From: Flavobacteriales bacterium
GTDB lineage: Bacteria > Bacteroidota > Bacteroidia > Flavobacteriales_E > Vicingaceae
Length of the DNA stretch: 26,571 nucleotides
Assembly (NCBI GenBank): GCA_002402165.1
Contig: NVVI01000012.1
Location: 12,959 to 39,529 of the forward strand
Reading direction: 5' to 3'
A program made the translations under genes and the position numbers. The notes beneath the pieces were generated by a model. It worked only from the letters and a program-made list of their open reading frames with translations, was not told the origin of the DNA and made no database searches. Positions 4,129 to 20,482 of the stretch are shown one piece after another. Within the stretch, counting starts at the first letter, position 1. Every line of letters begins with the position of its first letter.

Positions 4129-4273
4129 TAAAAATGAATGATTACTAAAAGTAGCAAAAAATAAATGAAGAGAGCTATCTTTGTTTATTGATGCTGAAAA
4201 CAAATAAGAAAATTAGTGTAATTTTGTTGGAGAGTATTTTACAAATTAATTTCTAACTATAAATAATAGAGAC

Positions 4274-6028: not shown

Positions 6029-6042
6029 TCGGAAGCTATCAG

Positions 6043-6060
6043 ATATTTACCGGTACAGAA
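6043..6060 (-). repeat. Degenerate mnmE 3'-end copy (candidate outer att site)
   Basis: Compared with the last 18 bp of mnmE, 14 of 18 bases match; read on the minus strand it encodes FCTGK with no stop. The flank on the mnmE-facing side (AAAGTTAAGTG) resembles the flank of the copy at 9292-9309 (AAAGTGAATTG), which argues against pure chance. If real, it is the outermost boundary of the island array. It is the weakest of the copies. Confidence 0.45.
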
Positions 6061-6082
6061 AGTTAAGTGCTACCCTTTACTA

Positions 6083-6109
6083 TTGAATAGCTCAATTTAC
6101 CTATCTTTG
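6083..6109 (+). promoter_or_regulatory. Candidate rlmF promoter
   Basis: A perfect -7 element TATCTTTG lies at 6102-6109 with a TTG at 6083-6085 (16-nt spacer, slightly short). The -7 element ends only 4 nt before the ATG at 6114, so the transcript would be leaderless or nearly so. Confidence 0.55.
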
Positions 6110-6113
6110 CTGC

Positions 6114-7076
6114 ATGCAAACAAAGCGTAAACATCCGAAAGTAAAGGCGAAACTACACCCGAAAAACAAACATAACGGTCGTTACAATTTGCAGCAATTA
6201 ATCGCAACATTACCTGAACTTAATGCTTTTGTTAAGATGAATGAATATGGAGATGAATCCATCGATTTCTTTAATCCAGAAGCGGTGCTAACACTTAACA
6301 AAGCTTTACTGAAACACTATTACGATATTCACGAGTGGACCATTCCAAACAATTACCTTTGCCCCCCTATTCCTAGTCGTGCAGATTACATCCATCACAT
6401 TGCACAACTCTTAGGAGAGAGCAATTATGGTAAAATACCTATAGGCGAGAACATTAAATGTTTGGATGTGGGTGTTGGAGCCAACTGTGTTTACCCCATT
6501 ATCGGTAGTAAGGAATATGGTTGGTTGTTTATCGGTGCTGATACCGATCAAATTGCCCTCGATAATGCACAATTTATAGTAGATAATAATGATATCCTAA
6601 AAGGGAAAGTTCAACTCATCCTACAAGAAAACCCGAAAGATTTCTTCTACGGTATCCTCAAAAAAGAAGATCAAGTAGATCTTACTATTTGCAACCCACC
6701 ATACCATGCTTCTCAAGTTGAATCGTCAGCTAGTACTATACGTAAGCTAAAAAACTTAAAAAAGAAATCTGTTCAGCAAGTCACCAAAAACTTCGGAGGA
6801 CAAAATTCTGAACTCTGGTGTGATGGTGGTGAGAATAAGTTTGTCAGAAATATGATGAGAGAAAGCAAAAAGTTCGGCAACTCCTGCTTCTGGTTCTCCA
6901 CCCTCATTTCTAAACAATCAAATGTAGAATCAGTACTTAAAGCACTTCGTAACGAAGATGCGGCAGAAATCAAAGTCATTCCTATGGGTCAAGGAAATAA
7001 AACATCTCGTATTATTGCTTGGACTTTTCTTACTCCTAGCCAACAGAAAGAATGGAGGGAAAAAAAATGGATCTAG
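6114..7076 (+). CDS. rlmF: 23S rRNA (adenine(1618)-N6)-methyltransferase
   Basis: This 320-aa protein matches the RlmF (YbiN/METTL16-like) family, which methylates A1618 of 23S rRNA with S-adenosylmethionine. Visible features are a basic N-terminus (KRKHPKVKAKLHPKNKH), the family segment YNLQQLIATLPELNAFVK, the NYLCPPIPSRADYIHH block, the SAM-binding LDVGVGANCVYP (about residues 117-128) and the catalytic NPPY at 194-197, followed by HAS. The length is normal for the family. The gene stands alone with its own promoter. It is bracketed by mnmE-3'-like repeats at 6043-6060 and 7112-7129, which is unusual for what is normally a chromosomal housekeeping gene. Confidence 0.95.
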   Translation: MQTKRKHPKVKAKLHPKNKHNGRYNLQQLIATLPELNAFVKMNEYGDESIDFFNPEAVLTLNKALLKHYYDIHEWTIPNNYLCPPIPSRADYIHHIAQLLGESNYGKIPIGENIKCLDVGVGANCVYPIIGSKEYGWLFIGADTDQIALDNAQFIVDNNDILKGKVQLILQENPKDFFYGILKKEDQVDLTICNPPYHASQVESSASTIRKLKNLKKKSVQQVTKNFGGQNSELWCDGGENKFVRNMMRESKKFGNSCFWFSTLISKQSNVESVLKALRNEDAAEIKVIPMGQGNKTSRIIAWTFLTPSQQKEWREKKWI

Positions 7077-7111
7077 ATTTTTCTCACTTTCGAGACCTAA
7101 TGTGTGTCTAC

Positions 7112-7129
7112 CTACTTTCCGATACAAAA
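7112..7129 (-). repeat. mnmE 3'-end copy (candidate att site)
   Basis: The minus strand reads TTTTGTATCGGAAAGTAG, matching the mnmE end at 16 of 18 bases and still encoding FCIGK plus a stop. No mnmE coding sequence precedes it. It lies 35 nt beyond the rlmF stop and separates the rlmF segment from the Fic segment. Confidence 0.75.
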
Positions 7130-7217
7130 AGTAATTAATACTGACTATCAATTACTTATAATTTAAAGGTACAAATAAGGTACAGACTAACACTAAATAT
7201 CGATTAATAAGAAGCTA

Positions 7218-8024
7218 TTACAATATTAATCCGAACCCTTTTGAGTTAGGTTTATTACTATGCTTTTGCTCTTCTATTTGCTGTGCTAAGTATTGGTTAA
7301 ACGCTGTTACCAATACATCCATTATCGGTTGATGTGTCTGATTAACAAATCCATCAATTAAGGCTTCATTATAAGCGTTCTTATCATTATGCAGTACTAT
7401 CAATGGAAAACCATTCGCCAATAACTGATTAGCGATTAGAAGCCTTGTCATACGCTTGTTACCATCAAAAAAGGCGTGAGCATTGTAAACATTCTGTATT
7501 AACTTAGATAGCTTTTCTAAAAAAGGAGCTGTACTACCGTTGTACGCTTCCAAACTTCCAACAATCATCTCTTTGCTTTCTTCGGGTGTTGGAGTATCAT
7601 AATAAACCTCAACACCATTTTGAACGTGTAGAATGCGATTAGACTTAATCTTATAAGCTCCTAACTCTTGCCCTTTTTCTTTCCAACTAACATAAGCAGG
7701 GTCAAGCTCAAAAGAGTTCTTTAACAAGCTCTCGTGTAAATTTAACAGCATCTTTTCTGTTAATGGATACTTACTTGCACCAAAAGATAAGGCTTGGTTT
7801 AATGCTCTGTAATTATCAATAGCCATTAAGCTATCCACCACAGAAACTTCTCCCGAAGCCTTATGAGTATTTACAATATCCTGTGTTTGAATAATAGTAA
7901 GGTTAGAGCCTTCTAATCGGTTAGAGTGATATACGAACTCTATTTTAACCTTATCGAACTCAGCTTTGGATTGAATAATTCCAAGCTCGCTGTACTGTTT
8001 TAATAAGGTTTCAAATGTTTTCAT
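7218..8024 (-). CDS. Fic-domain protein, class II (likely AMP transferase)
   Basis: The 268-aa protein has the Fic active-site motif HAFFDGNKRMTR at residues 183-194 (catalytic His183). It also has an N-terminal autoinhibitory motif SNRLEG at 34-39, matching [S/T]xxxE[G/N]. This makes it a class II Fic protein, whose inhibitory helix is in the same chain. Such proteins usually transfer AMP from ATP to a hydroxyl side chain of a target protein; the target is unknown here. The active-site motif is complete, so the enzyme is probably functional. No separate antitoxin gene is seen. A TATCTTTG element 8 nt upstream of the ATG suggests its own near-leaderless promoter. The gene sits between two mnmE-3'-like repeats with decayed genes beside it, so it is probable mobile cargo. 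Confidence 0.93.
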   Translation of the reverse strand: MKTFETLLKQYSELGIIQSKAEFDKVKIEFVYHSNRLEGSNLTIIQTQDIVNTHKASGEVSVVDSLMAIDNYRALNQALSFGASKYPLTEKMLLNLHESLLKNSFELDPAYVSWKEKGQELGAYKIKSNRILHVQNGVEVYYDTPTPEESKEMIVGSLEAYNGSTAPFLEKLSKLIQNVYNAHAFFDGNKRMTRLLIANQLLANGFPLIVLHNDKNAYNEALIDGFVNQTHQPIMDVLVTAFNQYLAQQIEEQKHSNKPNSKGFGLIL

Positions 8025-8032
8025 ATCAAAGC

Positions 8033-8040
8033 CAAAGATA
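8033..8040 (-). promoter_or_regulatory. -7 element of the fic gene
   Basis: A perfect TAnnTTTG match (TATCTTTG) ends 8 nt before the ATG at 8024. I see no TTG at the usual distance upstream. Confidence 0.45.
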
Positions 8041-8163
8041 GTGATTTTTGAATTAATGATTCTCTATAAATGTACAAATCCTCGCAATTATTAGAACCTA
8101 ATTCCTTAAAGGGAAACTACATACACTAAAATTAAATAAACCTCAACTTAGGTTTTCTTTTCA

Positions 8164-8409
8164 TCAAAAAGGACATTCCTCAGAAGTTGCTTCTAAAGCC
8201 ATAACGATAGCATCTACAATATCAGTATAACTAACATCTTTATTATTATGAAACACTTCATTAATTACAATCTCTATTAAATCTCTTACACCGTCTTTTT
8301 ACTCTATAACTAAAGCAACCTCATCAGCTATATCCTTATCAGTCATCTTAACATTAGGATTATCACCTTTATCTAAAGCTGAATTTACAGCAGCCTCTTT
8401 TTTGTCCAC
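8164..8409 (-). pseudogene. Small gene broken by one in-frame stop
   Basis: Read from a GTG at 8409 (or a TTG at 8427), the frame is open for 36 codons, meets TAA at 8299-8301, then continues for 44 codons to TGA at 8164-8166. Both halves look like normal protein: acidic, starting VDKKEAAVNSALDKG, with VRDLIEIVINEVF and YTDIVDAIVMALEATSEE after the stop. One codon change would give an 81-aa protein. I do not recognise the family. The sequence at the start (GACAAAAAAGAGG) is repeated 40 bp upstream (8434-8446), suggesting a small duplication of the 5' end. It lies in the Fic segment next to another broken gene. Confidence 0.6.
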
Positions 8410-8446
8410 TTGAGAATATTTAATCAAAATTAACCTCTTTTTTGTC
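8394..8446. repeat. 13-bp direct repeat, 40-bp period
   Basis: CCTCTTTTTTGTC occurs at 8394-8406 and 8434-8446. On the minus strand both copies read as the start of the same peptide (xDKKE), so this looks like a partial duplication of the 5' end of the broken small gene. Confidence 0.6.
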
Positions 8447-8483
8447 TATTAAGCCAAATATTACAAAAGAATTGAAATGTAAA

Positions 8484-8816
8484 TTAAAAATTAAAGACAA
8501 CTATTAATTCATCATCTTTAACTCTCTTGTCATTTAAGTAATTATTAAACTTTTCATACTCTAGAGTTCTAACACTCCTTAATGAGCCTGCATCAAAAAA
8601 ATCGAAACTAAAATTATTCGGTAATATATTGAAACAAAAACATGATTTAACTTTGCATTCATTAATGATGACAACATCCCGAGGTAAGTTTCTCTTCTCA
8701 TTTAGTTTAATGTCATATATAATAGTTGATTTATTTAAACCGGTTTTCCTTAGAGAAATAAATTTTGAATTTGGAGTAATAGCAAACCTAAAGTAAATAT
8801 TACACCCATTAAGCAT
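8484..8816 (-). CDS. Unknown protein, probable 3' half of a frameshifted gene
   Basis: The 110-aa reading frame starts with ATG at 8816. It contains a Cys-rich segment (CKVKSCFCFNILPN) and the block STIIYDIKLNEKRNLP. I do not recognise it. It follows the 128-aa frame at 8842-9228 with a 25-nt gap and a one-base frame difference. The frame is open upstream of its ATG (IKLKIPKDKG) back to the A/T-rich junction. Removing a single A from that junction would join the two frames into one protein of about 245 aa. It may therefore be the C-terminal part of a broken gene, or a small coupled gene in its own right. Confidence 0.5.
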   Translation of the reverse strand: MLNGCNIYFRFAITPNSKFISLRKTGLNKSTIIYDIKLNEKRNLPRDVVIINECKVKSCFCFNILPNNFSFDFFDAGSLRSVRTLEYEKFNNYLNDKRVKDDELIVVFNF

Positions 8817-8841
8817 CCCTTTATCCTTTGGAATTTTTAAT

Positions 8842-9228
8842 TTAATTTAACTGTTTTCTAATTATATTGATATCAATAGGCAAGAGACAGAGGCTTTCCC
8901 TGTCTCGAAAATGATGAATCATTCCATCATCATTATCACCACCATCGAAGTTGGAAGTATCATCTACAGAATCATTAAAAATAAATTTACTATTTGAAGT
9001 GACTTTAAGTCTATTGTAAAAATCTTCAACTTTACATTTACTATCTAACCAAGGCATATAGAGAGATAAAGATAGCACGCCAATATTATTTATAGCACTA
9101 TTATTAACTATTTCACACCCAAATTCAACTAGAGAAGTTTCATTCGTAAATTCCCAAGTGCATATGTGAAATCTTTCAATTTCAATGCCGCTAGTGGTAT
9201 CTGATGGTAAATAAAAAGAATTATCCAT
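8842..9228 (-). CDS. Unknown protein, probable 5' half of a frameshifted gene
   Basis: The 128-aa reading frame begins with ATG at 9228 and has a strong promoter directly upstream. It has no signal peptide or membrane segment. Notable features are FHICTWEFTNETSLVEFGCEI and an Asp/Gly-rich stretch (FDGGDNDDGMIHH). The product is not recognised. It ends in RKQLN at a TTAAA repeat, where a single-base change appears to have separated it from the 110-aa frame that follows. It is located just inside the mnmE-3'-like repeat at 9292-9309, in the position of first gene of the segment, with the small pseudogene and fic downstream. Confidence 0.55.
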   Translation of the reverse strand: MDNSFYLPSDTTSGIEIERFHICTWEFTNETSLVEFGCEIVNNSAINNIGVLSLSLYMPWLDSKCKVEDFYNRLKVTSNSKFIFNDSVDDTSNFDGGDNDDGMIHHFRDRESLCLLPIDINIIRKQLN

Positions 9229-9241
9229 GTCTGGTTTGAAA

Positions 9242-9271
9242 CAAATATAACTTATAATATTAAAAGTACAA
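9242..9271 (-). promoter_or_regulatory. Strong Bacteroidota-type promoter
   Basis: On the minus strand there is TTG at 9271-9269, a 19-nt spacer and TATATTTG at 9249-9242, matching the TTG-N19-TAnnTTTG consensus. It drives the gene starting at 9228, with a leader of only a few nucleotides. Confidence 0.7.
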
Positions 9272-9291
9272 TCGGTATATACACGTAGTTT

Positions 9292-9309
9292 TTATTTCCC
9301 GATACAGAA
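9292..9309 (-). repeat. mnmE 3'-end copy (candidate att site)
   Basis: The minus strand reads TTCTGTATCGGGAAATAA, 16 of 18 bases matching the mnmE end, with both differences synonymous so that FCIGK-stop is kept. It lacks upstream mnmE coding sequence. The GTAGTT just beyond it (9285-9290) also occurs next to the mnmE copy (20461-20466, overlapping its first two bases), suggesting a shared element-derived flank. Confidence 0.78.
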
Positions 9310-9445
9310 AGTGAATTGATTACTCCTAACCATTTACAACAAAGATTTTCAATGATTTAAAGTTCCTCGAGTAACATTAAAGTAACACTTTCTTATGAAG
9401 GATTGGATAGTAAAAGAAGCTGTTGATAATTATTGATTAAATAAA

Positions 9446-10087
9446 TTAAGCTACTAGTTTATTTTCAAAAGCATAACGTATCATTTCTGCAGTATTTTTT
9501 ACTTCAAGTTTAGCTAAAATATTTCTCCTATGCGTTTCTACCGTTCTACCACTTATGTTTAGTAATTCGCCAGTCTGGTTATTAGTTAGTCCCTTAGAAA
9601 TATATGTTAGCACTTCTAATTCTCTTTCAGATAAAATTAATGCTTTTGATTCATTAGCATTCATTAAAGAGTTAATCATAGTAACAGAAACATCATTACT
9701 ATAATATTTTTTACCTGAAAAAACTAACTTAATTGCTGAGAGTAACTCATTTATTCCACTATCTTTTAGAACATACCCCATAGCTCCTGCATTTATCATA
9801 TCTTTTATATAAACCTCTTCAATATGCATTGTTAATGCAATTATTTTAATATCATTATATCTTTCAGTAATGGTTTTAGTGGTCTCAATTCCTGTCATTC
9901 CAGGCATGTTAATATCCATTAAAACTACATCTATAGAATTAGGGTGTGCATTAAGATACTCAATTACCTCTTTACCAGATTTTGCCTCCGCTACAATATC
10001 AATATCATCATGCCTTTTTAATAATAATTTAACACCTTCTCTTATAAGAAGATGATCATCTACTAGCAATAGTTTTATTTTTCCCAT
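9446..10087 (-). CDS. NarL/LuxR-family response regulator
   Basis: From the ATG at 10087 the protein has 213 aa; a longer reading from a TTG at 10147 adds 20 residues before the receiver domain and is less likely. The receiver domain has acidic residues D10-D11, phospho-acceptor D58 (LMDINMPG), T86 and K108, all present. The C-terminal LuxR-type helix-turn-helix is at about 152-210 (LSERELEVL, NISGRTVETHRRNI). It should bind DNA when phosphorylated. NarL-type regulators pair with HisKA_3 kinases, and one is encoded at 18269-19651 in the same region, so that kinase is the best candidate partner. A palindrome in its upstream region (10161-10175) could be an autoregulatory site. Confidence 0.93.
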   Translation of the reverse strand: MGKIKLLLVDDHLLIREGVKLLLKRHDDIDIVAEAKSGKEVIEYLNAHPNSIDVVLMDINMPGMTGIETTKTITERYNDIKIIALTMHIEEVYIKDMINAGAMGYVLKDSGINELLSAIKLVFSGKKYYSNDVSVTMINSLMNANESKALILSERELEVLTYISKGLTNNQTGELLNISGRTVETHRRNILAKLEVKNTAEMIRYAFENKLVA

Positions 10088-10414
10088 ATAACTATTATTT
10101 TCGCTGTCAATTTTAGTTTTTAATTGTTCACTATTTAAATCGCCCAATCACAATGCATACAATACTCCCCGTATTATCTTTATAAAGGTAGTAAATAAAA
10201 ATAAAAACCCATGCCTTACTATACTGATTTTCCAGCTACTTATTGAGTATTTAAACGTCCTAATAACTACTTAATAATGTAAATAATTTACTCTAAATAA
10301 ATTATGTATATATCGTTTTTTTAGGATAGATACTGATTTTAAATTTACAGATTTCTACTGTTTTTTTTCTCTGTTTTAGGATTTAATTTTATTACAACCC
10401 TAAAACAATATGTT
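10088..10414. promoter_or_regulatory. Divergent intergenic region with a palindrome
   Basis: This 327-bp region between the NarL-type regulator and the C25-like gene contains no convincing gene. It holds the palindrome AATAC-TCCCC-GTATT at 10161-10175, a weak -7 match TACCTTTA on the minus strand (10190-10183), and an inverted repeat GTTTTAGG/CCTAAAAC at 10373-10380 and 10399-10406, ending 8 nt before the plus-strand ATG. The last could influence translation of the downstream gene. I could not find a full consensus promoter for the plus-strand gene. Confidence 0.4.
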
Positions 10415-12406
10415 ATGAAAAACTTTTATAGATTATTATTTTCAATTATCTTACTCTTTGCTTTCGTTAGCCTTAAAGCTCAAGAAAACTCAACTAAGAT
10501 AACTGTTCAACTATCTGCAACTTCTACTAAAAATCCTGCAAAAATAGTTTTAAGTTGGATTAATGATGGATCTGCAAATGGGTTTAAAATTTATAGGAGA
10601 ATTATTGGCTCAGGTAATTCTTGGGGAAATGCAATTTCCAATCTTCAGTCTTCTTCTTCCCAATATGTTGACAATAATGTAACTATTGGCATCAATTATG
10701 AATATTATGTAAAAAAAAATGGAGGTAATAGTAATAATGGTTATGGATATATCAATTCATCCATTGAACTTCCAGTTAAACAAAATAGGGGAAAATTAAT
10801 TCTAGTAGTGGAAAACACTTATATCGGTGATAATGATTTTGATGATGCTGTTGATATAACTATTAAAGATATAGAAGCAGATGGATGGATAGTGAAGAGA
10901 ATTAATGTTAACAGGAACGATGCCGTTACTTTTGTAAAACAACAAATCATAAATATTTACAATTTAGATAATGTAAATACAAAAGGGCTTTATTTACTAG
11001 GACATGTTCCTGTACCTTATTCTGGATTACTGTACCCTGACGGGCATACTGACCACATAGGAGCCTGGCCTGCTGATGCTTATTACGGAGATATAGATGG
11101 CATTTGGACGGACAACAGCGTAAATGATATGTCAGCTGCTAGATCTCAAAACCACAACATAGTAGGTGATGGTAAATTTGATCAATCTATTTTACCCTCT
11201 AATGTTGATTTACAAGTTGGAAGAGTCGATATGGCGAACTTAACTACTTTTTTAGAAACGGAAAAAGAGTTATTAATCCATTATATGAATAAAGCACACT
11301 TCTATAAAATAAAGGTAATTACTGCAAATGAAAGGTCATTAATAGATAATAATTTTACAACTCAACCAGAAGGTTTTGCTTCAAGTGGGTACAGAAATTT
11401 TTCAGTAATGTTTAATAATCAGAACATAAACGATTCTATTGATTATTTCACAGGAACATCAATTAATTCAGGGTCAAGTTATATGTGGTCATATGGATGT
11501 GGTGGTGGATCATATCAGAGTTGCGGTGGAATAGGAACTACGACTGGATTTAGTACTGATTATTTGCAAACTATTTTTACGATGCTAATTGGTAGTTATT
11601 TTGGCGATTGGGATTCAGAGAATAATTTTTTAAGGGCATCACTAGCTCAGGGACAAACCTTAACTGCAGCATGGGCTGGTAGACCGCACTGGTATTTTCA
11701 TCATATGGCATTAGGAGCCAACATTGGTTTTAGTACAAAATTAACGCAAAATAACAATGGAGAGTATTTTTCAAGTACATATACAAATTACTATAAAAGA
11801 AAAATACATATAGCTTTAATGGGAGATCCTACTTTAAGAATGCACTATATTTCTCCTCCCAACAACTTAAGTGCTTTAAATATTAACAATCAAATCGCTT
11901 TAAATTGGGATCCTTCACAAGATACTATTCTAGGGTACAATATCTACAGAATTTTACCTGGAGAAAATAGTTATACCAAAATAAATAACTCATTAATTAC
12001 TTCAACAACATATACCGATAATTCAATCTCATTTAGTACAGGTATTACTTATATCGTAAAAGCGGTTGTGTTAAAGACAACTGCAAGCGGCACATATTTT
12101 AATCAAAGTTTAGGTACTTCCTCAACAACATCAATTGTTTTAGGGCTGCAAGATTTAATCAATTCAAATATTAGTATATATCCAAATCCAAGCGATAACC
12201 TCTTTAATATTAAATGGAATAATTTATTAGTAGGTAATGTAAGGATTGAAGTATATAATATTAAAGGGCAACTTATTTATAAGAAAATAACCAGCGATTC
12301 AAACCACCATTCTTTGCAAATGGAGCAATTCCCTAGTGGCATCTATTTTGTTAAATTAAATGATGATATTGGTAATTTCCATGTAAAAAAAATCATTAAG
12401 TACTAA
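10415..12406 (+). CDS. Por-secreted protein with C25-peptidase-like domain
   Basis: This 663-aa protein has a signal peptide (about residues 1-22, ending LKAQ), a fibronectin-III-like domain (28-120), a region resembling the caspase-fold gingipain family C25 (about 125-480), a second Fn3-like domain (483-575) and a type IX secretion sorting domain (about 585-663: SIYPNPSDN, VYNIKGQLIYK, PSGIYFVKL). C25-like signs are LILVVEN near the start of the fold, LLGHVPVPYSG (194-204), ADAYYGDIDG (220-229) and the terminal LMGDPTLRM (468-476). A glycine/cysteine cluster WSYGCGGGSYQSCGG (358-372) may hold the nucleophile, but the usual His-Glu/Cys arrangement is not obvious, so activity is uncertain. It should be exported to the cell surface or medium. 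It converges on the receiver gene with a 5-bp gap. Confidence 0.85.
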   Translation: MKNFYRLLFSIILLFAFVSLKAQENSTKITVQLSATSTKNPAKIVLSWINDGSANGFKIYRRIIGSGNSWGNAISNLQSSSSQYVDNNVTIGINYEYYVKKNGGNSNNGYGYINSSIELPVKQNRGKLILVVENTYIGDNDFDDAVDITIKDIEADGWIVKRINVNRNDAVTFVKQQIINIYNLDNVNTKGLYLLGHVPVPYSGLLYPDGHTDHIGAWPADAYYGDIDGIWTDNSVNDMSAARSQNHNIVGDGKFDQSILPSNVDLQVGRVDMANLTTFLETEKELLIHYMNKAHFYKIKVITANERSLIDNNFTTQPEGFASSGYRNFSVMFNNQNINDSIDYFTGTSINSGSSYMWSYGCGGGSYQSCGGIGTTTGFSTDYLQTIFTMLIGSYFGDWDSENNFLRASLAQGQTLTAAWAGRPHWYFHHMALGANIGFSTKLTQNNNGEYFSSTYTNYYKRKIHIALMGDPTLRMHYISPPNNLSALNINNQIALNWDPSQDTILGYNIYRILPGENSYTKINNSLITSTTYTDNSISFSTGITYIVKAVVLKTTASGTYFNQSLGTSSTTSIVLGLQDLINSNISIYPNPSDNLFNIKWNNLLVGNVRIEVYNIKGQLIYKKITSDSNHHSLQMEQFPSGIYFVKLNDDIGNFHVKKIIKY

Positions 12407-12411
12407 TGCAA

Positions 12412-12885
12412 TCATGAAATCAGCTTTTGTCGCAACATAAATTCTAATTGTTTATTTGCTTGTAAAAGACTTTTGGTCAATTCTTGATTTTCCTTACGCA
12501 AGTTGTAAACTTCGTAAGTTTGATTTATTGTCATTTTTAATGATTCATTATCCCAAGGCTTAGAAACATATTTATATATTTGACCTTTATTGACAGCACT
12601 AATTACTGCTTCTATGTCTGAATAGCCAGTAATTAATATTCTCATTGGTTCAGGATGTTGCTTTATAATAGATTCTAAAAATTCAACGCCAGTCATTTCT
12701 GGCATACGCTGATCTGTTAATATGATTTCAATATCATTTTTAATAAGAATTTTTTTACCTTCTTTAGCAGATTCAGCAATATACACGTTAAAAATTCTAC
12801 GAAATGATGCTTTAAAAGCATTCAAATTACCTACTTCATCATCTACATAAAGCACATTGATTTTATTTACTTTTTCTTGTCCCAT
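12412..12885 (-). CDS. Stand-alone receiver-domain response regulator
   Basis: The 157-aa protein is a receiver domain (D15-D16, phospho-acceptor D58 in LTDQRMP, T86, K109 in YVSKPW) followed by a coiled-coil tail (about 122-157) and no output domain. The DQRMP/KPW type is commonly found with HisKA-type kinases. More than half of its residues match the N-terminal receiver of the kinase at 18269-19651 by eye, including VDDE, AFKASFRR and YSDI, so the two are paralogues within the same locus. It is divergently transcribed from the ThiF-nitroreductase operon across 180 bp containing an operator-like inverted repeat. It probably takes phosphate from the 7TMR-DISM kinase or competes with the hybrid kinase receiver. 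Confidence 0.92.
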   Translation of the reverse strand: MGQEKVNKINVLYVDDEVGNLNAFKASFRRIFNVYIAESAKEGKKILIKNDIEIILTDQRMPEMTGVEFLESIIKQHPEPMRILITGYSDIEAVISAVNKGQIYKYVSKPWDNESLKMTINQTYEVYNLRKENQELTKSLLQANKQLEFMLRQKLIS

Positions 12886-12934
12886 AATTTATATACCTAA
12901 AACTTCTAAAATAGTTGCACTTAACTTTTACTAA

Positions 12935-12978
12935 GTATAAATACGGAGTGAAATTACTTTAAAACACGTATTTTATAC
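12935..12978. promoter_or_regulatory. Operator-like inverted repeat in divergent promoter
   Basis: GTATAAATACG at 12935-12945 is mirrored by CGTATTTTATAC at 12967-12978 (one-base bulge), with a 21-nt spacer. It lies between the divergent starts at 12885 and 13066. The left arm continues as AATACGGAGT, similar to the complement of the palindrome at 10161-10175 (AATACGGGGAGT). Confidence 0.45.
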
Positions 12979-13004
12979 TGTAAATGCATCTTTATATTCA
13001 TTTT

Positions 13005-13038
13005 TTGTTAAATCAAATAAATTATTAATCTATATTTA
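13005..13038 (+). promoter_or_regulatory. Candidate promoter of the ThiF-nitroreductase operon
   Basis: TTG at 13005-13007 and TATATTTA at 13031-13038 (one mismatch to TAnnTTTG) are separated by 23 nt, at the long end of the accepted range. The transcript would have a leader of about 20 nt. Confidence 0.35.
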
Positions 13039-13065
13039 ACTGTAATTCATTGAAACATGTAAGGT

Positions 13066-15381
13066 ATGCTTTCTAAGTCCATTAAAGATAATAATAGTTT
13101 TAAACCTATTTTTTTTGATATAAAAATAGAAAGTGAGTATAATAAACTTTCTTCCCTCCTAAAATCTAACCCTTCGATAGAAATATTAGATGAAATAAAA
13201 GGTCAATTAGAAGAATTACTTAAACTAAAAAACCCGAAAAAGAAGTTTACTACTGATGAACTGAAACAAGAAATAAAAAAACATTTAAACAATACCCCCA
13301 TTAAAAGTTATGGTGTTTGGGTTTATTATCCATGGTTAAACAAGCTCATACATCTATTAGCTGAAAATGAATTTATTGAAGTTCGGACTAATCGAAATCA
13401 ATATAAAATTACGCCCGATGAAAAAGAAATTTTAGCTACAAAAAAAATTGGAATTATTGGATTATCTGTCGGTAAAGCTATTGCCATCACTATGGCTATG
13501 GAACGAATTTGTGGAGAATTAATTTTGGCCGATTTTGACATTATTGAACTTTCCAACTTGAATAGAATCCAAACAGGAGTTCAGAATTTTGGGGTTAAAA
13601 AAACGATTGTAGTAGCCCGTGAAATTGCAGAAATAGACCCCTACTTAAAAGTAACCTGTTTACATGATGGCTTAACTGAACAAAACGTAAACGATTTTTT
13701 CACGAAAGATGGAAAACTAGATATTTGCATAGAAGTATGCGATGGCTTATACACTAAAATTTTTGCTCGACAAAAAGCAAAAGAATTGGGTATTCCTGTA
13801 GTTATGAATTCGAGTGATAGAGGCACGACAGACATTGAGCGTTTTGATTTAGATCCTAGCTTGCCAATATTACACGGATTAATTGACCATCTAGATTTAA
13901 GCTTGGTAAAAGAAGCAAAAACTAATGAAGAAAAAGTGCCTTATCTTTTGCCAATGCTCGGAGTTGAAACCTCTTCTGAAAGGTTAAAAGCATCTATGCT
14001 TGAAATAGAAGAAACCATCACTACATGGCCACAATTAGCATCAGGAGTTGTTTTTGGAGGTGGAATATGTACAGATGTTTGCCGTAGAATATTGCTCAAC
14101 CAATTTACCAATTCGGGCAGGTACTTTGTAGATACAGAACAGCATATTAATAATAATGTTACAGATTACATTTCTGCAAATCAATTAAAAGAAGAGCAAA
14201 TCAATTTAATACCTAAAACCAATCTTGAAGATTATGCTGATACATTAAAAGAAGCAAATGAAAAATTATTTAATAAAAATAATGATGCAAGCTGTGAGTT
14301 GACCAATACCGAAGTGGAAGAATTAGTGAAATACGCTATAATGGCTCCTTCTGGAGGAAATGTACAGCCCTGGAAATGGTTATTTAAAGATAAAATCTTA
14401 ATGTTGTTTAATGACATTAACAGATGTGAATCTATTTTAAACTATAAAAATACGGCATCATTAATTAGCCTCGGAGCTGCAACAGAAAACCTAATTCTTA
14501 AGGCTCATCAAATGGAATATGAGGTTGAAATCAATAAATTCCCATTAGGAATTGGTAATGACTTAATAACAACATTTAATTTTTTAAAAAACAAAACTAA
14601 AACTACTGAAGAGCATCTCCATGATAATCTAATAGATGTAGTTCCCAAAAGACTAACTAATAGAAATCTAAGTAAAAAAGTAGATTTAAAAGAAGAAGAT
14701 GAAAGTTATTTTCATGAAGTTGTAAATTCCATTAATGGTGCTGAATTAAAAATATTTAAAGATGTTAATCAAATAGAAAAATTAAAAGAGATTCTTGCTG
14801 AAGTAGACAAATTATTTATGACCAATAAAACTGGACACGCCCACTTCATTCATGAAATTAGATGGACTAAAAAAGAAGTAGAAGAAACTAGAGATGGTAT
14901 TGATATCAATACTATAGACTTAACTCCAGCAGAAAGAGCAGGTTTAATTGTTGCTAAAAACTGGAATGTAACCAAACACATTAAAAAATGGAAACTCGGT
15001 AATGAATTTGGGAAATTATCAAAAAAAGCAGTTGATTCTGCTGCTGCTTTAGGAATGATTACCATGCCAAAATTTGATGCTGATAATTTTTTTGAAGGTG
15101 GTAGAGCTGTTCAAAAATTATGGTTGGCCGCTACCGAAAAAGGGATTGCTTTTCAACCAATGTCTATTTCAACATTTTTATTTGCAAAAGTAGGAGACAA
15201 TAACTTTGATGATATTGAAGAAATTAAAGATGAAATGACAACTCAATATGACAAGTTAAAAGAGATTACAGGAATGGCAGAAAACCAAAAAGATGTCTTC
15301 TTTTTTAGGTTGGCTTCTGCTCCAGAACCTAAAATTAAAGCACTAAGAAGACACGTAGAAGATGTTTTAATGTATGAATAG
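13066..15381 (+). CDS. ThiF/E1-like - nitroreductase fusion (Rv1355c/MoeY-like)
   Basis: This 771-aa protein joins an N-terminal region of unknown role (1-125), a ThiF/MoeB/E1-like adenylation domain (about 126-350) and a nitroreductase-like flavin domain (about 412-760). In the E1 part the nucleotide loop reads IGIIGLSVGKA (128-138), an unusual GxSxG form. The conserved ELSNLNRIQ (R167), the lysines K178-K179 and Asp226 (CIEVCDG) are present. The nitroreductase part starts with VEELVKYAIMAPSGGNVQPWKW. The order matches the family called Rv1355c, whose mycobacterial member is named MoeY. The reaction is not known; domain logic suggests adenylation of a carboxyl group followed by flavin redox chemistry. 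The stop overlaps the ATG of the GNAT gene by 8 bp, so the two products are probably made together. Confidence 0.88.
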   Translation: MLSKSIKDNNSFKPIFFDIKIESEYNKLSSLLKSNPSIEILDEIKGQLEELLKLKNPKKKFTTDELKQEIKKHLNNTPIKSYGVWVYYPWLNKLIHLLAENEFIEVRTNRNQYKITPDEKEILATKKIGIIGLSVGKAIAITMAMERICGELILADFDIIELSNLNRIQTGVQNFGVKKTIVVAREIAEIDPYLKVTCLHDGLTEQNVNDFFTKDGKLDICIEVCDGLYTKIFARQKAKELGIPVVMNSSDRGTTDIERFDLDPSLPILHGLIDHLDLSLVKEAKTNEEKVPYLLPMLGVETSSERLKASMLEIEETITTWPQLASGVVFGGGICTDVCRRILLNQFTNSGRYFVDTEQHINNNVTDYISANQLKEEQINLIPKTNLEDYADTLKEANEKLFNKNNDASCELTNTEVEELVKYAIMAPSGGNVQPWKWLFKDKILMLFNDINRCESILNYKNTASLISLGAATENLILKAHQMEYEVEINKFPLGIGNDLITTFNFLKNKTKTTEEHLHDNLIDVVPKRLTNRNLSKKVDLKEEDESYFHEVVNSINGAELKIFKDVNQIEKLKEILAEVDKLFMTNKTGHAHFIHEIRWTKKEVEETRDGIDINTIDLTPAERAGLIVAKNWNVTKHIKKWKLGNEFGKLSKKAVDSAAALGMITMPKFDADNFFEGGRAVQKLWLAATEKGIAFQPMSISTFLFAKVGDNNFDDIEEIKDEMTTQYDKLKEITGMAENQKDVFFFRLASAPEPKIKALRRHVEDVLMYE

Positions 15382-16132
15382 CATTGAACATCAATATAAA
15401 ATTTTTGCATTTAGAGCCATTGACGAACCTGAATTATGCAAACAGTATATTGAAGGACACATTAAAGTGTTAACCGATTATGGTATTGCGAACATTACAT
15501 CCAACAACAACTCATGGGTAACCAATCCTAATATTTATTGCCTTGGTTTATGGTCTGAATCTAAAGAATTGTTAGGTGGAATTAGAATACAATTGGCCGA
15601 TGGCAAAAATTTATTACCCATTGAAGAAGCTATTGGTTATATGGAAAACGACATTTACAATATCGTTAAAACCTACGCTCTAAATGGAGGTATCGGAGAA
15701 TTGTCAGGATTATGGATTGACAATAGGTTAAGGGGGTTAGGAATTGGATGGTATATGGTAAGGGCTGCAATAGCATCTTCTAGTCAATTGAATTTTAAAA
15801 CAATGATTGGTATCTGTGGCGATGTAACTTTAACCATGTTTAACAATGTTGGGTTTGTAGTCGATAAAAGCATTGGAGATAATGGTCAATTTTATTATCC
15901 AAACGAAGATTTAATTGCTCATGTAGTTGGGATTTTAAATGCCATAACACTTGAAAGTGCAATTGAATATGATAAGGACATCATGGTGTCTTTAAGAAAA
16001 GATAGTCAACAACAACGAATAGAAAATGACACTGACACTGAAGTTTGTATCAATTATAATTTAATCTATCCAAAAGTAGTTAGTATTGATTTCTCTAATG
16101 AGGTCTCCAACATTAAATCAATTAACAAATGA
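15374..16132 (+). CDS. GNAT/LuxI-like acyltransferase
   Basis: The 252-aa protein has a GNAT acyl-CoA-binding motif RLRGLGIG (118-125) preceded by the strand GELSGLWID. An earlier strand, ELLGGIRIQLADG (65-77), resembles the vGGxRL segment of autoinducer and N-acyl amino acid synthases. CGDVTLTMFNNVGF (148-161) fits the acetyltransferase C-terminal half. It should acylate an amine, perhaps the product of the preceding ThiF-nitroreductase enzyme; substrate and acyl donor are not visible. It overlaps its neighbours at both ends (8 bp upstream, 4-bp ATGA downstream into the sensor kinase), tight coupling that ties the enzymes to the sensor. The C-terminal 80 residues have no recognised domain. 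Confidence 0.85.
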   Translation: MNSIEHQYKIFAFRAIDEPELCKQYIEGHIKVLTDYGIANITSNNNSWVTNPNIYCLGLWSESKELLGGIRIQLADGKNLLPIEEAIGYMENDIYNIVKTYALNGGIGELSGLWIDNRLRGLGIGWYMVRAAIASSSQLNFKTMIGICGDVTLTMFNNVGFVVDKSIGDNGQFYYPNEDLIAHVVGILNAITLESAIEYDKDIMVSLRKDSQQQRIENDTDTEVCINYNLIYPKVVSIDFSNEVSNIKSINK

Positions 16133-18282
16133 CTCCTCGTTTAAAAATAAAACTTCTTTTGTGTAATCTTGCAACACTAATTGTTTTTTGCTTGAGCGGA
16201 CAACTATTTGCCGCAGAGACTATTGAATTTAAGGACAAAGATAAGTCCATGAATATTGGTGGCTCAATCTCTATATTTGAAGACGCATCCGGGACTCTAA
16301 CCATTGACGATGTTATTTCCAAAGAGTTTATTCCTTCAACATCTCCAGTACCAAATTTAGGAATCACAAAATCTCATTTTTGGGTAAAAATTCCTATCAC
16401 AAATAAAACAGATAATGATAATTTATTTTTAGAATTATCATTAGCTATTATAGATTATATTGAGTTCTATTCTCCTTCCGAAAACGGTAAGTTTTCCGTA
16501 ATCAAAACTGGAGAAGAATTTATTTTTGAGAACAGAAAATATAACGATCCTAATTACCTATTTGATCTTCATCTCTCTAAAGAAGAAACAAAAACTTACT
16601 ATTTGAAAATTAAGAGTAATGAAGCCGTTCAAATACCAATTAAAATTGGGACAAAAACAGCTATTTATTCCGAAATTAAAATTAGAGATTTATTATCGGG
16701 AATCTATTTCGGGATAATGTTAGTAATGATTCTTTATAATCTATTTATTTATTTTTCTACTAGAGATAAGAGTTATTTATACTATGTTATATACATCATT
16801 TGTATACTACTTACTCAAACAAGTTTGCAAGGCTATACTTTCCAATACATATGGCCAAACAAGCCATTGCTGGCTCAATACAGCTTATTTATTTTACCTT
16901 CCTTATCAAGTATTACAGGGATGTTTTTTATGAATGTTTTTTTAAGGACAAAAGAATACTCCAAAAAATTAAACAATCTTGCCATAATTTTATCTATCCC
17001 TTTTATACTCTCAATTTCTTTGTCATTTGCAGGTAATTATAAAATAAGCCAACTAATTATGGAAATAGGTTCAGGAATTGTTTCCATCTACATATTAGTT
17101 ACGGCCATATTAATTTTAAGAAAAGGTTTTTCTCCAGCTAAATACTTTTTAGTTGCATGGGTTATTTTCCTTATAGGTGTTACTATCTATATTTTAAAAG
17201 ATTTTGGTGTATTACCTTTTAATAATTTTACCCGATATACTATGCAAATAGGTTCAGGAATAGAAACAATTCTACTATCATTTGCTTTAGCTGCTAGAAT
17301 AAATATTTACAGAAAAGAAAAAGAAGAAGCCCAAGACAAAACTGTTGAAGTATTAAAAGAAAATGAAAAAATAATAAAAGACCAAAATATAGTATTGGAA
17401 CAAAAAGTGGAGGAACGAACTGCCGAATTAAACCAAACGTTAAGTGATTTGAAAGAAACCCAATCACAATTGGTTGATGCAGAAAAAATGTCCTCTTTAG
17501 GTCAATTAACCGCAGGAATTGCTCATGAAATTAATAACCCAATCAATTTTGTTTCTTCTAATATTACTCCACTTCGACAGGATATCGCTGATGTAAATAC
17601 CATCATTGCAAAATATGAAGAACTTGAAGACTCAGATAACATTCCTGAAAAGCTAAAAGAAATTGATGCATTAAAAAAAGAGCTTGATTTTGATTATTTA
17701 AAAACAGAATTATCAACTATAATTGATGGAATTGAGGACGGTGCCAAGCGAACGACAGAAATAGTAAGTGGATTAAGAAATTTTTCACGATTAGATGAAG
17801 GAGAATTAAAAAGTGTAAATATTAATGAAGGAATAGAATCGACATTAATTTTAATAAAAAACAAACTAAACAGAATTAAAATAAAAAAAAAACTAGGAAA
17901 TATTCCAAATATAGAATGTAACCCTGGAAAAATCAATCAAATAGTAATGAACTTAATTGATAATGCCATTTATGCCATAGATAAAAAAGACATGGAAAAT
18001 AAAAATGGGGCAATTGAAGTTATAACAGAAAGTGGTAGTGATTCCATTATTCTTACTATTAAAGACAATGGTATTGGAATTGATGAAGCCATAAAAGACA
18101 AGCTTTTTGACCCATTTTTTACTACAAAAGATGTTGGTGAAGGTACAGGGTTAGGCCTATCTATTGTAAGAAGTATAATTGATAATCATAACGGAAAAAT
18201 AACAGTTAATTCAATAATAAATAAAGGGACAGAAATGATTGTAGAAATTCCGATAAAAAGAAAAGATAATGGAGAAAATTAA
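16129..18282 (+). CDS. 7TMR-DISM sensor histidine kinase
   Basis: This 717-aa protein has a signal peptide (1-28), an extracytoplasmic 7TMR-DISMED2-type sugar-binding-like domain (about 30-175), seven membrane helices (about 185-395), a coiled coil (395-455), a HisKA dimerisation domain with phospho-acceptor His466 (GIAHEINNP) and an ATPase domain with N box at 608 ([10 protein letters not shown]), [15 protein letters not shown] and GEGTGLGLS. All catalytic boxes are present, so it should be active. The DISMED2 domain suggests sensing of a small, perhaps sugar-like, extracellular ligand. It begins inside the GNAT gene and its end overlaps the next kinase gene by 14 bp, so all four genes form one operon. 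Likely phosphate acceptors are the receiver of the next gene and the 157-aa regulator at 12412-12885. Confidence 0.95.
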
Positions 18283-19651
18283 GGTTTTATATATTGATGA
18301 TGAGATCATTAACCTGCACGCTTTTAAAGCCTCGTTTAGAAGGTTATTTGAGATACACATAGCAGTTTCTGCAGAAGAAGGTTATAAAATTTTAAAAACC
18401 AACCCTATTGAAGTTGTAATTTCAGATCAACGAATGCCAGGAAAGTCTGGTGTTGATTTTTTTGAATCAATATTAGATATACACCCAAACCCTATTCGAA
18501 TTTTATTAACTGCTTATAGCGACATAAATGCTGTAATAGATGCTATTAATAGAGGCAGTGTTTACCGTTACGTTACAAAACCTTGGAACGAATACGACTT
18601 AAAATTAACGATAGAAAATGCTTACCATTTATATCATCTTAAAGAACAGAACAACAAATTAAGCCTTAAATACCGTAAAGTTTTTTCCGATTCATCGGAT
18701 CCTATTCTTTTATTCGATACAAAAGGAAGAATCGTTGACTATAACAAAGCGGCTATCAATTTTATTGGCGCAGGTAGTAATTCATTAAATTTACTTCCAA
18801 TTAGTAGTATAATTAAAGATAAAAATGATACTCACGAAATCATTAATAAACTAAATAAAAAAGGAATTATAACTGGATTTGAATGCCAAATTTATGGCAA
18901 AAATAATAGCATAAAAAACTGCTTGATTTCTGCCAATAAAATAACAGATAGTTACGGTGAAATAATAAGTTATCAGGTAATTATTAAAGACATTACTGAG
19001 CAAAGCAAAATGAATCAACTTTTACTTAAAAAAACCATCGAAACTCAGGAACAAGAAAGAGAAAGAATATCTAGGGATTTACATGATGGAATTGGGCAAT
19101 CTTTAGTAGCGTTAAAATTACATTTTGAAAGTTTAGAAAATAATTATAATCAAAATAATAATATAGAAAATGAATTAAAGTCAATCCCAAAAATCTTAAC
19201 AAATGCGATATCGGATTTAAGAAGAATATGCCATAACACCTTACCTCTTGCTTTATATGAATATGGTATAATAGAAGCAATTAAAGAGTTACAACAAACT
19301 AATTCTAATGATAATTGTAAAATATTTTTTGATTATAATGCTAATTTTCCAATAATAACTAATCCTTTTAGCATTTCTATTTTTAGGATAATTCAAGAGT
19401 TTATCAATAATAGTATAAAGCATAGTAATGCAACTGAAATTAGAATTAAATTAGAAAATAATAAAGAGCATATTATTTTAAATTTAAAAGACAATGGTAT
19501 TGGATTTAACATAAATGACATGAAACTATCTAAAGGACATGGATTGAAAAATATAAAAAACAGGATTGAATCTCTTAAAGGAAAAGCAAGCATGAATAGC
19601 ATTATGAATGAAGGAACAGAATTTAACATTTCTTTCCCTGTTCATGCATAA
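18269..19651 (+). CDS. Receiver-PAS-HisKA_3 hybrid kinase
   Basis: The 460-aa cytoplasmic protein has an N-terminal receiver (phospho-acceptor D53 in ISDQRMPG, YVTKPW), a PAS domain (about 140-250: DPILLFDTKGRIVDYN, IIKDITEQ), a HisKA_3 domain with His272 (RISRDLHDGIGQSL) and a C-terminal ATPase (FINNSIKHSNA, DNGIGFN, GHGLKNIKNRIE). No membrane segment is visible. It is well placed as a relay: its receiver could accept phosphate from the upstream 7TMR-DISM kinase, and its HisKA_3 part could phosphorylate a NarL-type regulator such as the one at 9446-10087. This wiring is inferred from family pairing rules. It is the last gene of the operon. Confidence 0.95.
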   Translation: MEKIKVLYIDDEIINLHAFKASFRRLFEIHIAVSAEEGYKILKTNPIEVVISDQRMPGKSGVDFFESILDIHPNPIRILLTAYSDINAVIDAINRGSVYRYVTKPWNEYDLKLTIENAYHLYHLKEQNNKLSLKYRKVFSDSSDPILLFDTKGRIVDYNKAAINFIGAGSNSLNLLPISSIIKDKNDTHEIINKLNKKGIITGFECQIYGKNNSIKNCLISANKITDSYGEIISYQVIIKDITEQSKMNQLLLKKTIETQEQERERISRDLHDGIGQSLVALKLHFESLENNYNQNNNIENELKSIPKILTNAISDLRRICHNTLPLALYEYGIIEAIKELQQTNSNDNCKIFFDYNANFPIITNPFSISIFRIIQEFINNSIKHSNATEIRIKLENNKEHIILNLKDNGIGFNINDMKLSKGHGLKNIKNRIESLKGKASMNSIMNEGTEFNISFPVHA

Positions 19652-19690
19652 TAATTATTGTAAACACCCTCTACTTTTACTGTTCCATCC

Positions 19691-19702
19691 GCTTAATTAA
19701 GC
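19691..19702. terminator. Short palindrome after the kinase operon
   Basis: GCTTAATTAAGC is a perfect 12-bp palindrome 39 nt after the operon stop, followed by a T-rich stretch. It may contribute to termination, but the stem is short and has no proper loop. Confidence 0.2.
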
Positions 19703-19874
19703 TATAAATCCTTTTCTTTTTTTTTATGAAGTTAATATTTCCAATAAATTCTCTAGGTAACTTCCCTTAAAATAATAATGGGGTTTTACTAGATAAATTT
19801 AAGGTATTCTACTCTTTTATTTCTTTACCATTTGATTTAAATTTATGGTAATGATATAGTTAAAAGAGAAAATC

Positions 19875-20306
19875 ATGGAGAATCAAAAAATACTTGTACC
19901 GAAACCCAGTAATAATTCGATAATTACATTCCTATTTGGATTAGTATTGATACTAACATCAATAACAGCTAACGCACAATTTGCATCTAAAAGCATCCCT
20001 CCTAATAGCAGTCAAATAGTTGATTATCAAATACAAATATTTGAAGTAGCAAAAATAGAAAATAAACTCTATTTTAAGTTTGTAGTGATTGAAAATATGC
20101 TCAATACATCTTATACATTAGAATATTCAGATAATGGAATAGATTTTTATACCATCCAATTAAAAGAAGGTTTTAAGTCTCCTAATGGAACTCCACTAAT
20201 GTATTGTTACACTGTAAATGATTTGAACAATTTTAATTCTAAGAAATTTAGAATAAGAAGAGGCTCAAAAAAGGGAGTTAACTATTCTTTGGTAATTAAT
20301 GGATAA
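19875..20306 (+). CDS. Small exported beta-sandwich-like protein
   Basis: The 143-aa protein has a 16-residue hydrophilic start, a hydrophobic helix (about 17-35) and a likely cleavage site after ANAQ. The mature part (about 105 residues) has alternating strands, including YTLEYSDNGIDFYTIQ and KKFRIRRGSKKG. This resembles the common Bacteroidota extracellular module of the form 'ERSxDGxxFxxI ... YYRLK', often found in Por-secreted proteins. No sorting domain is attached. It is separated from the kinase operon by 223 bp and probably has its own promoter, though I see no good consensus. It is the last gene before the mnmE terminator, so it sits at the island edge. Function unknown. Confidence 0.65.
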   Translation: MENQKILVPKPSNNSIITFLFGLVLILTSITANAQFASKSIPPNSSQIVDYQIQIFEVAKIENKLYFKFVVIENMLNTSYTLEYSDNGIDFYTIQLKEGFKSPNGTPLMYCYTVNDLNNFNSKKFRIRRGSKKGVNYSLVING

Positions 20307-20375
20307 TTATTTCACCATCATTTTAAGTTTTCATCATAAAACCATATGGTAAATCTTTTTGTCAAAATTGGGAAG

Positions 20376-20394
20376 TTTCCAGAAATTTCCAGAA
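20376..20394. repeat. Tandem TTTCCAGAA repeat near the mnmE end
   Basis: TTTCCAGAA occurs at 20376-20384 and 20386-20394, a 10-bp period, about 70-90 bp from the mnmE core. It could be an arm-type integrase site or chance. Confidence 0.35.
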
Positions 20395-20424
20395 AAAAAT
20401 AGCATCATAAAATGCTATTTTTTT
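20393..20424. terminator. Bidirectional terminator hairpin
   Basis: A perfect 13-bp stem (AAAAAAATAGCAT pairing with ATGCTATTTTTTT) has a 6-nt CATAAA loop. The A tract on one side and T tract on the other let it terminate both mnmE and the convergent small exported protein gene. Confidence 0.85.
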
Positions 20425-20464
20425 GAAGTAATTATAAGATAAAAAGAGACATCGGAAAAAGTAG

Positions 20465-20482
20465 TTACTTTCCGATACAGAA
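20465..20482 (-). other. mnmE 3'-terminal core (candidate attachment site)
   Basis: The minus strand reads TTCTGTATCGGAAAGTAA, the FCIGK-stop codons of mnmE. SGI1 and related islands are known to integrate into the corresponding last 18 bp of this gene in other bacteria. Three copies lie at 9292, 7112 and 6043 in the same orientation. An imperfect inverted repeat spans it, ATCGGAAA (20451-20458) against TTTCCGAT (20469-20476). Confidence 0.72.

Follow-up and report, generated by a model that had tools for sequence, protein, structure and literature searches.

Why should the last 18 bp of mnmE recur, in the orientation of the gene, at several places downstream of it? The question is raised by a stretch of 26,571 nucleotides, referred to below as the window, which is C58:12959-39529 of the 3.06-Mb draft genome (G000) of a Flavobacteriales bacterium. 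We consider it quite probable that a tyrosine-recombinase system spread over the Bacteroidota uses the 3' end of mnmE as its attachment site in the chromosome, and that positions 6043-20482 of the window are an accretion stack of three integrated units. The gene, the copies of its end (cores) and the segments between them are as follows.

20465..21829, minus strand: mnmE (tRNA modification GTPase), a 454-aa open reading frame (ORF) ending FCIGK; its 3' end is the probable attachment site
20465..20482, minus strand: mnmE-proximal core, junction of mnmE and the left end of segment A, TTCTGTATCGGAAAGTAA
9292..9309, minus strand: second core (A/B junction), 16/18, FCIGK-stop
7112..7129, minus strand: third core (B/C junction), 16/18, FCIGK-stop
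6043..6060, minus strand: fourth, decayed core, distal end of the recognisable stack, 14/18, FCTGKY
9310..20464, no strand: segment A, 11.2 kb, core-bounded; absent between mnmE and the Fic segment in relative G010
7130..9291, no strand: segment B, 2.2 kb, matching the segment directly behind mnmE in G010
6061..7111, no strand: segment C, 1.07 kb core to core, bounded by cores and holding rlmF only

The three far copies had been described by a sequence-only reading of this DNA, and we find them as it placed them, with the same agreement to mnmE and all on its strand; FCIGK-stop is indeed retained at 9292 and 7112, and 6043 reads FCTGKY. The spacings from core to core are 11,173, 2,180 and 1,069 bp. 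Named genomes hold full-length relatives of mnmE, the nearest being that of a Vicingus serpentipes metagenome-assembled genome (77% identical).

Could the copies have arisen by chance, or belong to a dispersed terminator-like repeat that has nothing to do with integration? A consensus fold does pair the arms of the core, and at no more than two mismatches the genome holds five sites, namely mnmE, 9292, 7112 and two further ones on contigs C23 and C50. Against this, the window holds three matches at no more than three mismatches, the gene end counted, where 0.03 are expected; they lie on the same strand and in frame, and both the empty and occupied junctions and the ends conserved across orders, described below, speak against it too. 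None of 100 dinucleotide shuffles reached three matches. Given 0.03 expected and 3 found, we reject the chance repeat and hold this explanation to be very improbable; nor is the 18-mer a common repeat of the genome, which by the criterion of the sequence-only reading would have been fatal to its proposal. Attachment borne by a tRNA was considered as well, and no tRNA was found in the window. The 6043 copy with its flank scores 29.6 bits in a 20-bp profile, whereas the runner-up in 34.8 kb reaches 6.7 bits and the best of 10 shuffles 13.4 bits; the score of 6043 is not independent, because the nine sites of the profile include all four sites of the window.

The left half of each far copy reads ACTTT(C/T), where mnmE has AAGTTC, and forms a short inverted repeat around a 7-bp spacer. 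The ideal site would therefore be ACTTTC-TGTATCG-GAAAGT, and 6-bp arms around 7 bp are what the core of a tyrosine recombinase looks like. Of the shared flanks proposed earlier, AAAGTxAA occurs without a mismatch at 9292 and 6043, whereas AAAGTAAT stands at 7112; what all three have in common is ACTTT(C/T). The GTAGTT of 9285 does not keep the same register with the core as that of 20461, and we give it no weight. The right halves at 20465, 9292 and 7112 differ only in synonymous and stop codons (GGA/GGG, AAG/AAA, TAA/TAG), as expected if each had once been the working end of mnmE, a state that 6043 has lost.

What lies at this place in relatives? The window was compared with 39 mnmE-downstream regions of the family, all from draft assemblies and many ending early at contig ends. 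The content behind mnmE varies between most of the family genomes compared; three close relatives of one genus (G061, G016, G029) share their order. A gene order conserved from mnmE outwards had been named as evidence against integration; the order of the window occurs in none of the 39 regions, many of which are shortened by contig ends. Inspection of the mnmE flank in relatives, proposed by the same reading, yields a genome that is without segment A yet retains segment B: in G010 a Fic unit lies directly behind mnmE, to which segment B is 84.9% identical over 1228 bp and 86.5% over the last 52 bp, and both end in the same TAATTACTTTTTGTATCGGAAAGTA.

In G008, the mnmE contig stops 81 bases past the core, and a second contig shows an island end, the core and the same bases; the two junctions (mnmE to X and island end to X) agree in 98 of 98 bases, core included. 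This is an empty and an occupied site within one assembly, perhaps from two strains. Contig C142 of G009 comprises a core, two other genes and then three genes which are 82-89% identical to the C58 genes just left of the window and stand in the same order; that C142 follows mnmE is inferred from synteny, because the mnmE contig of G009 ends. A contig of G002 that starts with the core runs into a ComEC-like gene (named by eye), a relative of which lies 30 kb behind mnmE in the genome of the window. Contig breaks fall less than 300 bp from the mnmE stop in 6 of 41 family genomes, against 0.59 expected (P about 2e-5, with the 300-bp limit chosen after the data were seen and the contig numbers rounded).

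The copies also keep to one strand. Downstream of mnmE in the family, at no more than three mismatches, 15 copies lie on the mnmE strand and 1 on the other (four of the 15 are in the window's own genome, one of these probably by chance), the reversed pattern giving 9 on both strands; 3 of the 40 regions are without a proper mnmE core, two at contig ends and one, L193, excluded because its downstream match is the gene end itself. At 80 mnmE loci of named Bacteroidota, the counts at no more than two mismatches are 5 on the same strand and 0 on the other downstream, 1 and 0 upstream; at no more than three they are 10 and 6 downstream, 4 and 2 upstream. Several of these 80 loci are the same contigs as in the family genomes, and one of the five is G010 (L045).

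Do the segments share more than the core? The last 120 bp before each core (right ends) were sorted into types, two of which occur in the stack.

9293..9441, minus strand: type-A right end of segment A, made up of GTTACT repeats and the core over about 150 bp; it scores 110.7 bits with model R1, of which it is itself a part
7112..7200, minus strand: type-B right end, TTTGTACC-like direct repeats, TGAT/ATCA and core; aligned with relatives

The type-A ends at 9292 of the window, at 25262 of G009 and in G008 are homologous (z 13.8-20.3 against shuffles; 16.7 and 13.8 for the window's end with those of G009 and G008), and the right end of segment A, about 150 bp, recurs at islands carrying other cargo. 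Model R1 was built from seven type-A copies, so seven of its strong matches are its own; beyond these, a search with tightened filters picked up strong copies in the window's own genome (C4, C28), in G013 (C321) and in G009 (C85). On C142 of G009, a stretch of 21.7 kb has the module behind long ORFs five times, four of them strong and one partial; a type IX secretion system (T9SS) sorting domain was found in all four ORFs run in Pfam, of five, their N-terminal parts differ, and the cores inside the array are strongly decayed. At C4, the core abuts a small gene, and the orthologous locus of G009 reads AAGTTCTGTATAATATAAC without the unit, which is consistent with a secondary site. The idea that a type-A end is a fixed 3' trailer of its locus was dropped: at the C4 locus only G000 and C321 of G013 have it, and the other 12 loci are without it (G011 with only 57 bases; one is the second locus of G013). 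A comparable arrangement at L307 (G000:C28, oriented 5757-9582) consists of a T9SS gene, a type-A end and a core, followed by the duplicated 3' end of the preceding small gene, with the join CTGTATCAGAAAA; the next paralogous T9SS gene has no end module, and the locus looks like an insertion at a secondary site.

The partial type-A end on C23 scores 27.9 bits with R1, though alignment gives little sign of a relation to the end of segment A (z 3.9, less than the best shuffle). The core there (L191, G000:C23:61-181) has an island-type left flank, lies 164 bases from the contig end with its partner unassembled, and adjoins ordinary-looking chromosomal genes.

Type-B ends could be aligned between 7112 of the window, G010, Imperialibacter (L094), Pararhodonellum (L060) and an integrase-bearing Saprospiraceae locus (L057). 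Model R2, which includes only the window's own end from among the 395 genomes searched, finds, also under tightened filters, 41 ends in genomes other than that of the window; the mnmE contig carries 15 of them, and the remaining 26 are on other contigs. Eight of the 15 lie downstream on the same strand within 110 kb, at 0.1, 2.2, 12.7, 13.9, 22.9, 66, 101 and 109 kb (for the far ones the link to mnmE is only putative); one lies 4.4 kb upstream and six elsewhere or far away. An FCIGK-stop core stands at the match in 6 of the 7 downstream loci examined (of 8; G408 was left out), and G440 has no core beyond that of mnmE itself. The core-bounded segments behind mnmE hold parts of HipA (G145, 2.25 kb), type I restriction and a TmtA-type protein (G070, a single-contig genome, 14 kb), or a sigma factor, FecR, a TonB receptor, SusD and a sulfatase (G187, 12.8 kb). 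No integrase was found in these three segments with perfect cores by BLAST against four integrases and by Pfam, a run that left out an ORF of G187 and gave no match for one of G070.

Two loci may be added here. In another family of the class, L182 (G056:C72) has a 2.1-kb HipA_C plus helix-turn-helix (HTH) unit between mnmE and a core copy with two mismatches; it differs from the HipA unit of G145. On a contig without mnmE (L365/L366, G400:C43), three co-oriented type-B ends stand 14 and 39 kb apart, two of them with FCIGN-stop cores and the same right flank. The window has no Rfam match at gathering scores that would make a right end a known RNA family, and apart from a CTTTCC-like inverted repeat noticed by eye, the left ends of the units do not clearly resemble one another in sequence. 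The proposal of successive integrations downstream of mnmE is supported by G010, by the junctions in G008 and by the right ends shared with other mnmE islands.

Is there a recombinase that uses this site? Relatives of one tyrosine recombinase lie right behind mnmE in G012, G032, G009 and G031 (the last copy is cut by a contig end). They carry the domains Arm-DNA-bind_5, SAM_5 and PF00589 (Pfam, G012 and G032), and a related 117-aa protein precedes the integrase in G032, G009 and G031, with HTH_17 in the one run. Profile A1, made from four proteins picked for lying at mnmE (G012, G032, G009 and L057), matches at E <= 1e-60 in 59 of the 395 genomes of the phylum. The best matches of 30 genomes, among 73 matches listed, have an mnmE end within about 1.5 kb of the integrase in 19 cases, the best 13 included. 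The other 11 show none, some of them because the contig ends first, and so it is likely that further targets are used in the family at large. Twelve genomes were selected for an integrase at mnmE and hence are no sample; in 8 there is at least one downstream core on the same strand, with 10 copies against 1 opposite at no more than three mismatches. The second core lies at 21.3 kb in G346, 11.7 kb in G389, and 5.8 and 6.6 kb in G347 and G119; G122 has two core copies with the integrase only in the first segment (BLAST). The L057 element, 6.6 kb long and flanked by two identical 17-base cores, comprises an HTH_17 protein, the integrase, a Rep-like protein (named by eye) and a type IIG restriction enzyme.

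We presume that each unit is a circle with an attP core spelling (F)CIGK-stop. If mnmE and the circle crossed over within the 7-bp spacer, mnmE would receive a new synonymous 3' end, and the old one, now with the ACTTT island-type left half, would be displaced to the far side of the insert. As the old end would move outward at each insertion, the units nearest to mnmE should be the youngest and the farthest core the most decayed. No integrase domain was found in segments A, B and C by Pfam on the main ORFs of at least 110 aa (three had no match of any kind), and with the same scope no integration or transfer genes were found between their att-type cores, which is the definition of a cis-mobilizable element (CIME). 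The three segments look like such elements moved by an enzyme supplied in trans: their right ends would provide the arm sites for recognition, autonomous islands that relatives carry at the same place would provide the mnmE-specific integrase, and the units may still be moving.

Several observations weigh against this account. For the segments of the window itself, neither a circular junction nor an empty site in the same species was seen. In G000 no close relative of the mnmE-adjacent integrases was found (the best match, on another contig, has 29% identity, E 1.9e-11), and a helper could be missed because the genome is 91% complete. No second core was found in G211, G259, G381 and G420 within the 22.0, 18.9, 39.1 and 1.9 kb examined. 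Type-A ends occur away from mnmE as well (C4, C28), and the type-B matches are not all at mnmE (of the 15 on the same contig, 1 is upstream and 6 are far away, and 26 more lie on other contigs). The 6043 copy, with four mismatches, is weak taken alone, and its arm fits the type-A model only in part and marginally (12.9 bits, E 0.029). Segment B shows no relation to the G010 unit in its left 0.9 kb, nor that unit to segment B in its left 0.5 kb, and no convincing relative turned up for the end of segment C on the right. The stack may thus have had a less simple history than three clean insertions.

The segments could also once have had integrases and lost them. They would then be remnants of autonomous mnmE islands, the integrase deleted after integration and nothing moved in trans, which we think rather unlikely. 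Islands with an integrase and the same target do exist in G012, G032, G009, G031 and other Bacteroidota, the unrelated left parts of segment B and the G010 unit are such as deletions could leave, and the 6043 core has decayed. However, right end and core have stayed intact at both 9292 and 7112, G010, G145, G070 and G187 also have units whose cores are perfect and in which no integrase was found, and G010 and the window have in common a 1.2-kb integrase-free Fic stretch with the same end.

It is tempting to compare the small units with gene cassettes, that is, single genes with a fixed 3' site of about 150 bp captured singly behind mnmE. Segments B and C are nearly single-gene; the type-A ends on C142 of G009 stand behind five long ORFs with the T9SS domain in those run, and more copies come after a T9SS gene on C28 and, on C4 and on C321 of G013, after ORFs whose ends look T9SS-like by eye. 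Yet segment A is multi-gene, the inner cores of C142 are strongly decayed, and duplication of T9SS genes together with their 3' ends could give the same picture. Seven type-A ends show no attC-like fold (RNAalifold, 10 pairs, -0.64 kcal/mol), and an integron integrase above the family cut-off (TIGR02249) was found in none of four genomes. An integron proper is rejected on these two defining features (IntI-type integrase, attC hairpin), and we regard cassettes in the stated sense as doubtful. Only tentatively would we suggest a wider, integron-like platform of the Bacteroidota in which the mnmE-specific integrase moves tiny integrase-free units in trans, often of a single gene (Fic, HipA, rlmF, T9SS surface proteins) and with nothing in common but a right end of about 90 to 150 bp, and lays them in order behind mnmE, whose last codons are rewritten synonymously.

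What do the segments carry? The remaining features of the window are these.

7218..8024, minus strand: Fic-family protein, candidate phage-defence cargo of segment B, PF02661 E 7.5e-11
8484..8816, minus strand: hypothetical ORF, left part of B, no Pfam match
8842..9228, minus strand: hypothetical ORF, left part of B, no Pfam match, within the part not matching G010
6114..7076, plus strand: rlmF-type 23S rRNA methyltransferase, PF05971 E 1.8e-108, sole match in the genome

By Pfam, segment A encodes a 7TMR-DISM sensor kinase, a response-regulator/PAS/kinase hybrid, two more response regulators and a LuxR-type regulator. It further holds a ThiF-nitroreductase fusion, a GNAT-like protein of marginal score and one protein in which a T9SS sorting domain was found; a 143-aa ORF had no match. 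The ThiF-nitroreductase fusion, the GNAT-like protein, the 7TMR-DISM kinase and the two-component regulators form a compact module at 12412-19651. In G028 (L161), too, regulator and ThiF genes are found immediately behind mnmE, there reversed in orientation and with 72-73% nucleotide identity; the cargo of segment A therefore recurs at mnmE. The Fic protein of segment B has PADLOC matches to PDC-S04 (E 7.7e-25) and SoFic (6e-9). Beyond the stack, positions 1-6028 hold several paralogous tetratricopeptide repeat (TPR) proteins, one with a C-terminal phosphatase-like part seen by eye; members of this cluster lie behind mnmE in G033 (five, L159) and G004 (one, L197) as well, and the cluster is perhaps an older layer without recognisable cores.

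Segment C has a G+C content of 0.376 against 0.308 in the window, and its rlmF may be either imported or the native chromosomal gene relocated into the stack; relocation is a fair question, to which we would give a somewhat smaller chance. The gene has a single match in the genome; 9 of 13 other congeners have rlmF elsewhere, in partly conserved neighbourhoods, and in the window's genome the native neighbourhood survives without it at L231 (G000:C50:40211-40226), where the matches to the two neighbour genes end 15 bp apart. In the tree, however, the window's RlmF is basal to the congeners, while a short-chain dehydrogenase/reductase (SDR) of the native neighbourhood is sister to that of G013 at 89%. 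Constraining RlmF with G013 and G009 is not rejected by the approximately unbiased (AU) test (p 0.077), which leaves room for a move accompanied by fast change. The core copy on C50 was considered as a mark of the old place of rlmF and dropped, because the native neighbourhood is about 13 kb away.

If the proposed attachment site is real, the mnmE end with a right-end module is a short query for locating accessory loci of the Bacteroidota that swap defence systems, toxin-antitoxin genes, polysaccharide loci and type IX-secreted proteins. The trmE hot spot of the resistance islands of Gammaproteobacteria would then be used in a second phylum, and by units too small and bare for integrase searches to find.

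How does the stack compare with known systems? The right-hand direct repeat (DRR) of Salmonella genomic island 1 (SGI1) in Gammaproteobacteria is the last 18 bp of thdF, which is trmE or mnmE (PMC3285670), and different islands are reported integrated in tandem at trmE (PMC7449626). The likeness to the SGI1 family lies in the target, the last 18 bp of the same gene, and in direct repeats at both ends. The sequence-only reading pointed to SGI1-type islands, a label that holds for the target and is only putative for the element: the host belongs to the Bacteroidota, the window segments have no found integrase, and the Bacteroidota integrase has no close relative in the genome. The mnmE integrases of relatives carry Arm-DNA-bind_5 and SAM_5.

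The ssrA islands of Dehalococcoides are described in PMC3146451 as lying many in tandem and bounded by copies of the host-gene 3' end, 15 of them without an integration module and suggested to be cis-mobilizable. Their recombinase is the serine recombinase DsiB and their target a transfer-messenger RNA gene, unlike the tyrosine recombinase in relatives and the protein gene mnmE here. CIMEs, in the account of PMC5704250, are att-bounded, have no integration or transfer genes and lie beside functional elements of the same specificity. Relatives carry candidate helper integrases at the same mnmE site; unlike CIMEs, some units here are one gene long and their right ends are common to different bacterial orders, and their mobilisation is putative. 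Integrons capture small, often single-gene units serially at one chromosomal site. The stack resembles them in this serial capture and differs in having no integron integrase above the cut-off and no attC-like fold. We found no account of such mnmE islands in Bacteroidota among the titles and abstract openings listed from the openly licensed PubMed Central (PMC) literature. The kind of arrangement is known from SGI1 at trmE, the ssrA islands and CIMEs; what our searches suggest to be new is the variant that occurs in Bacteroidota, with its one-gene units.

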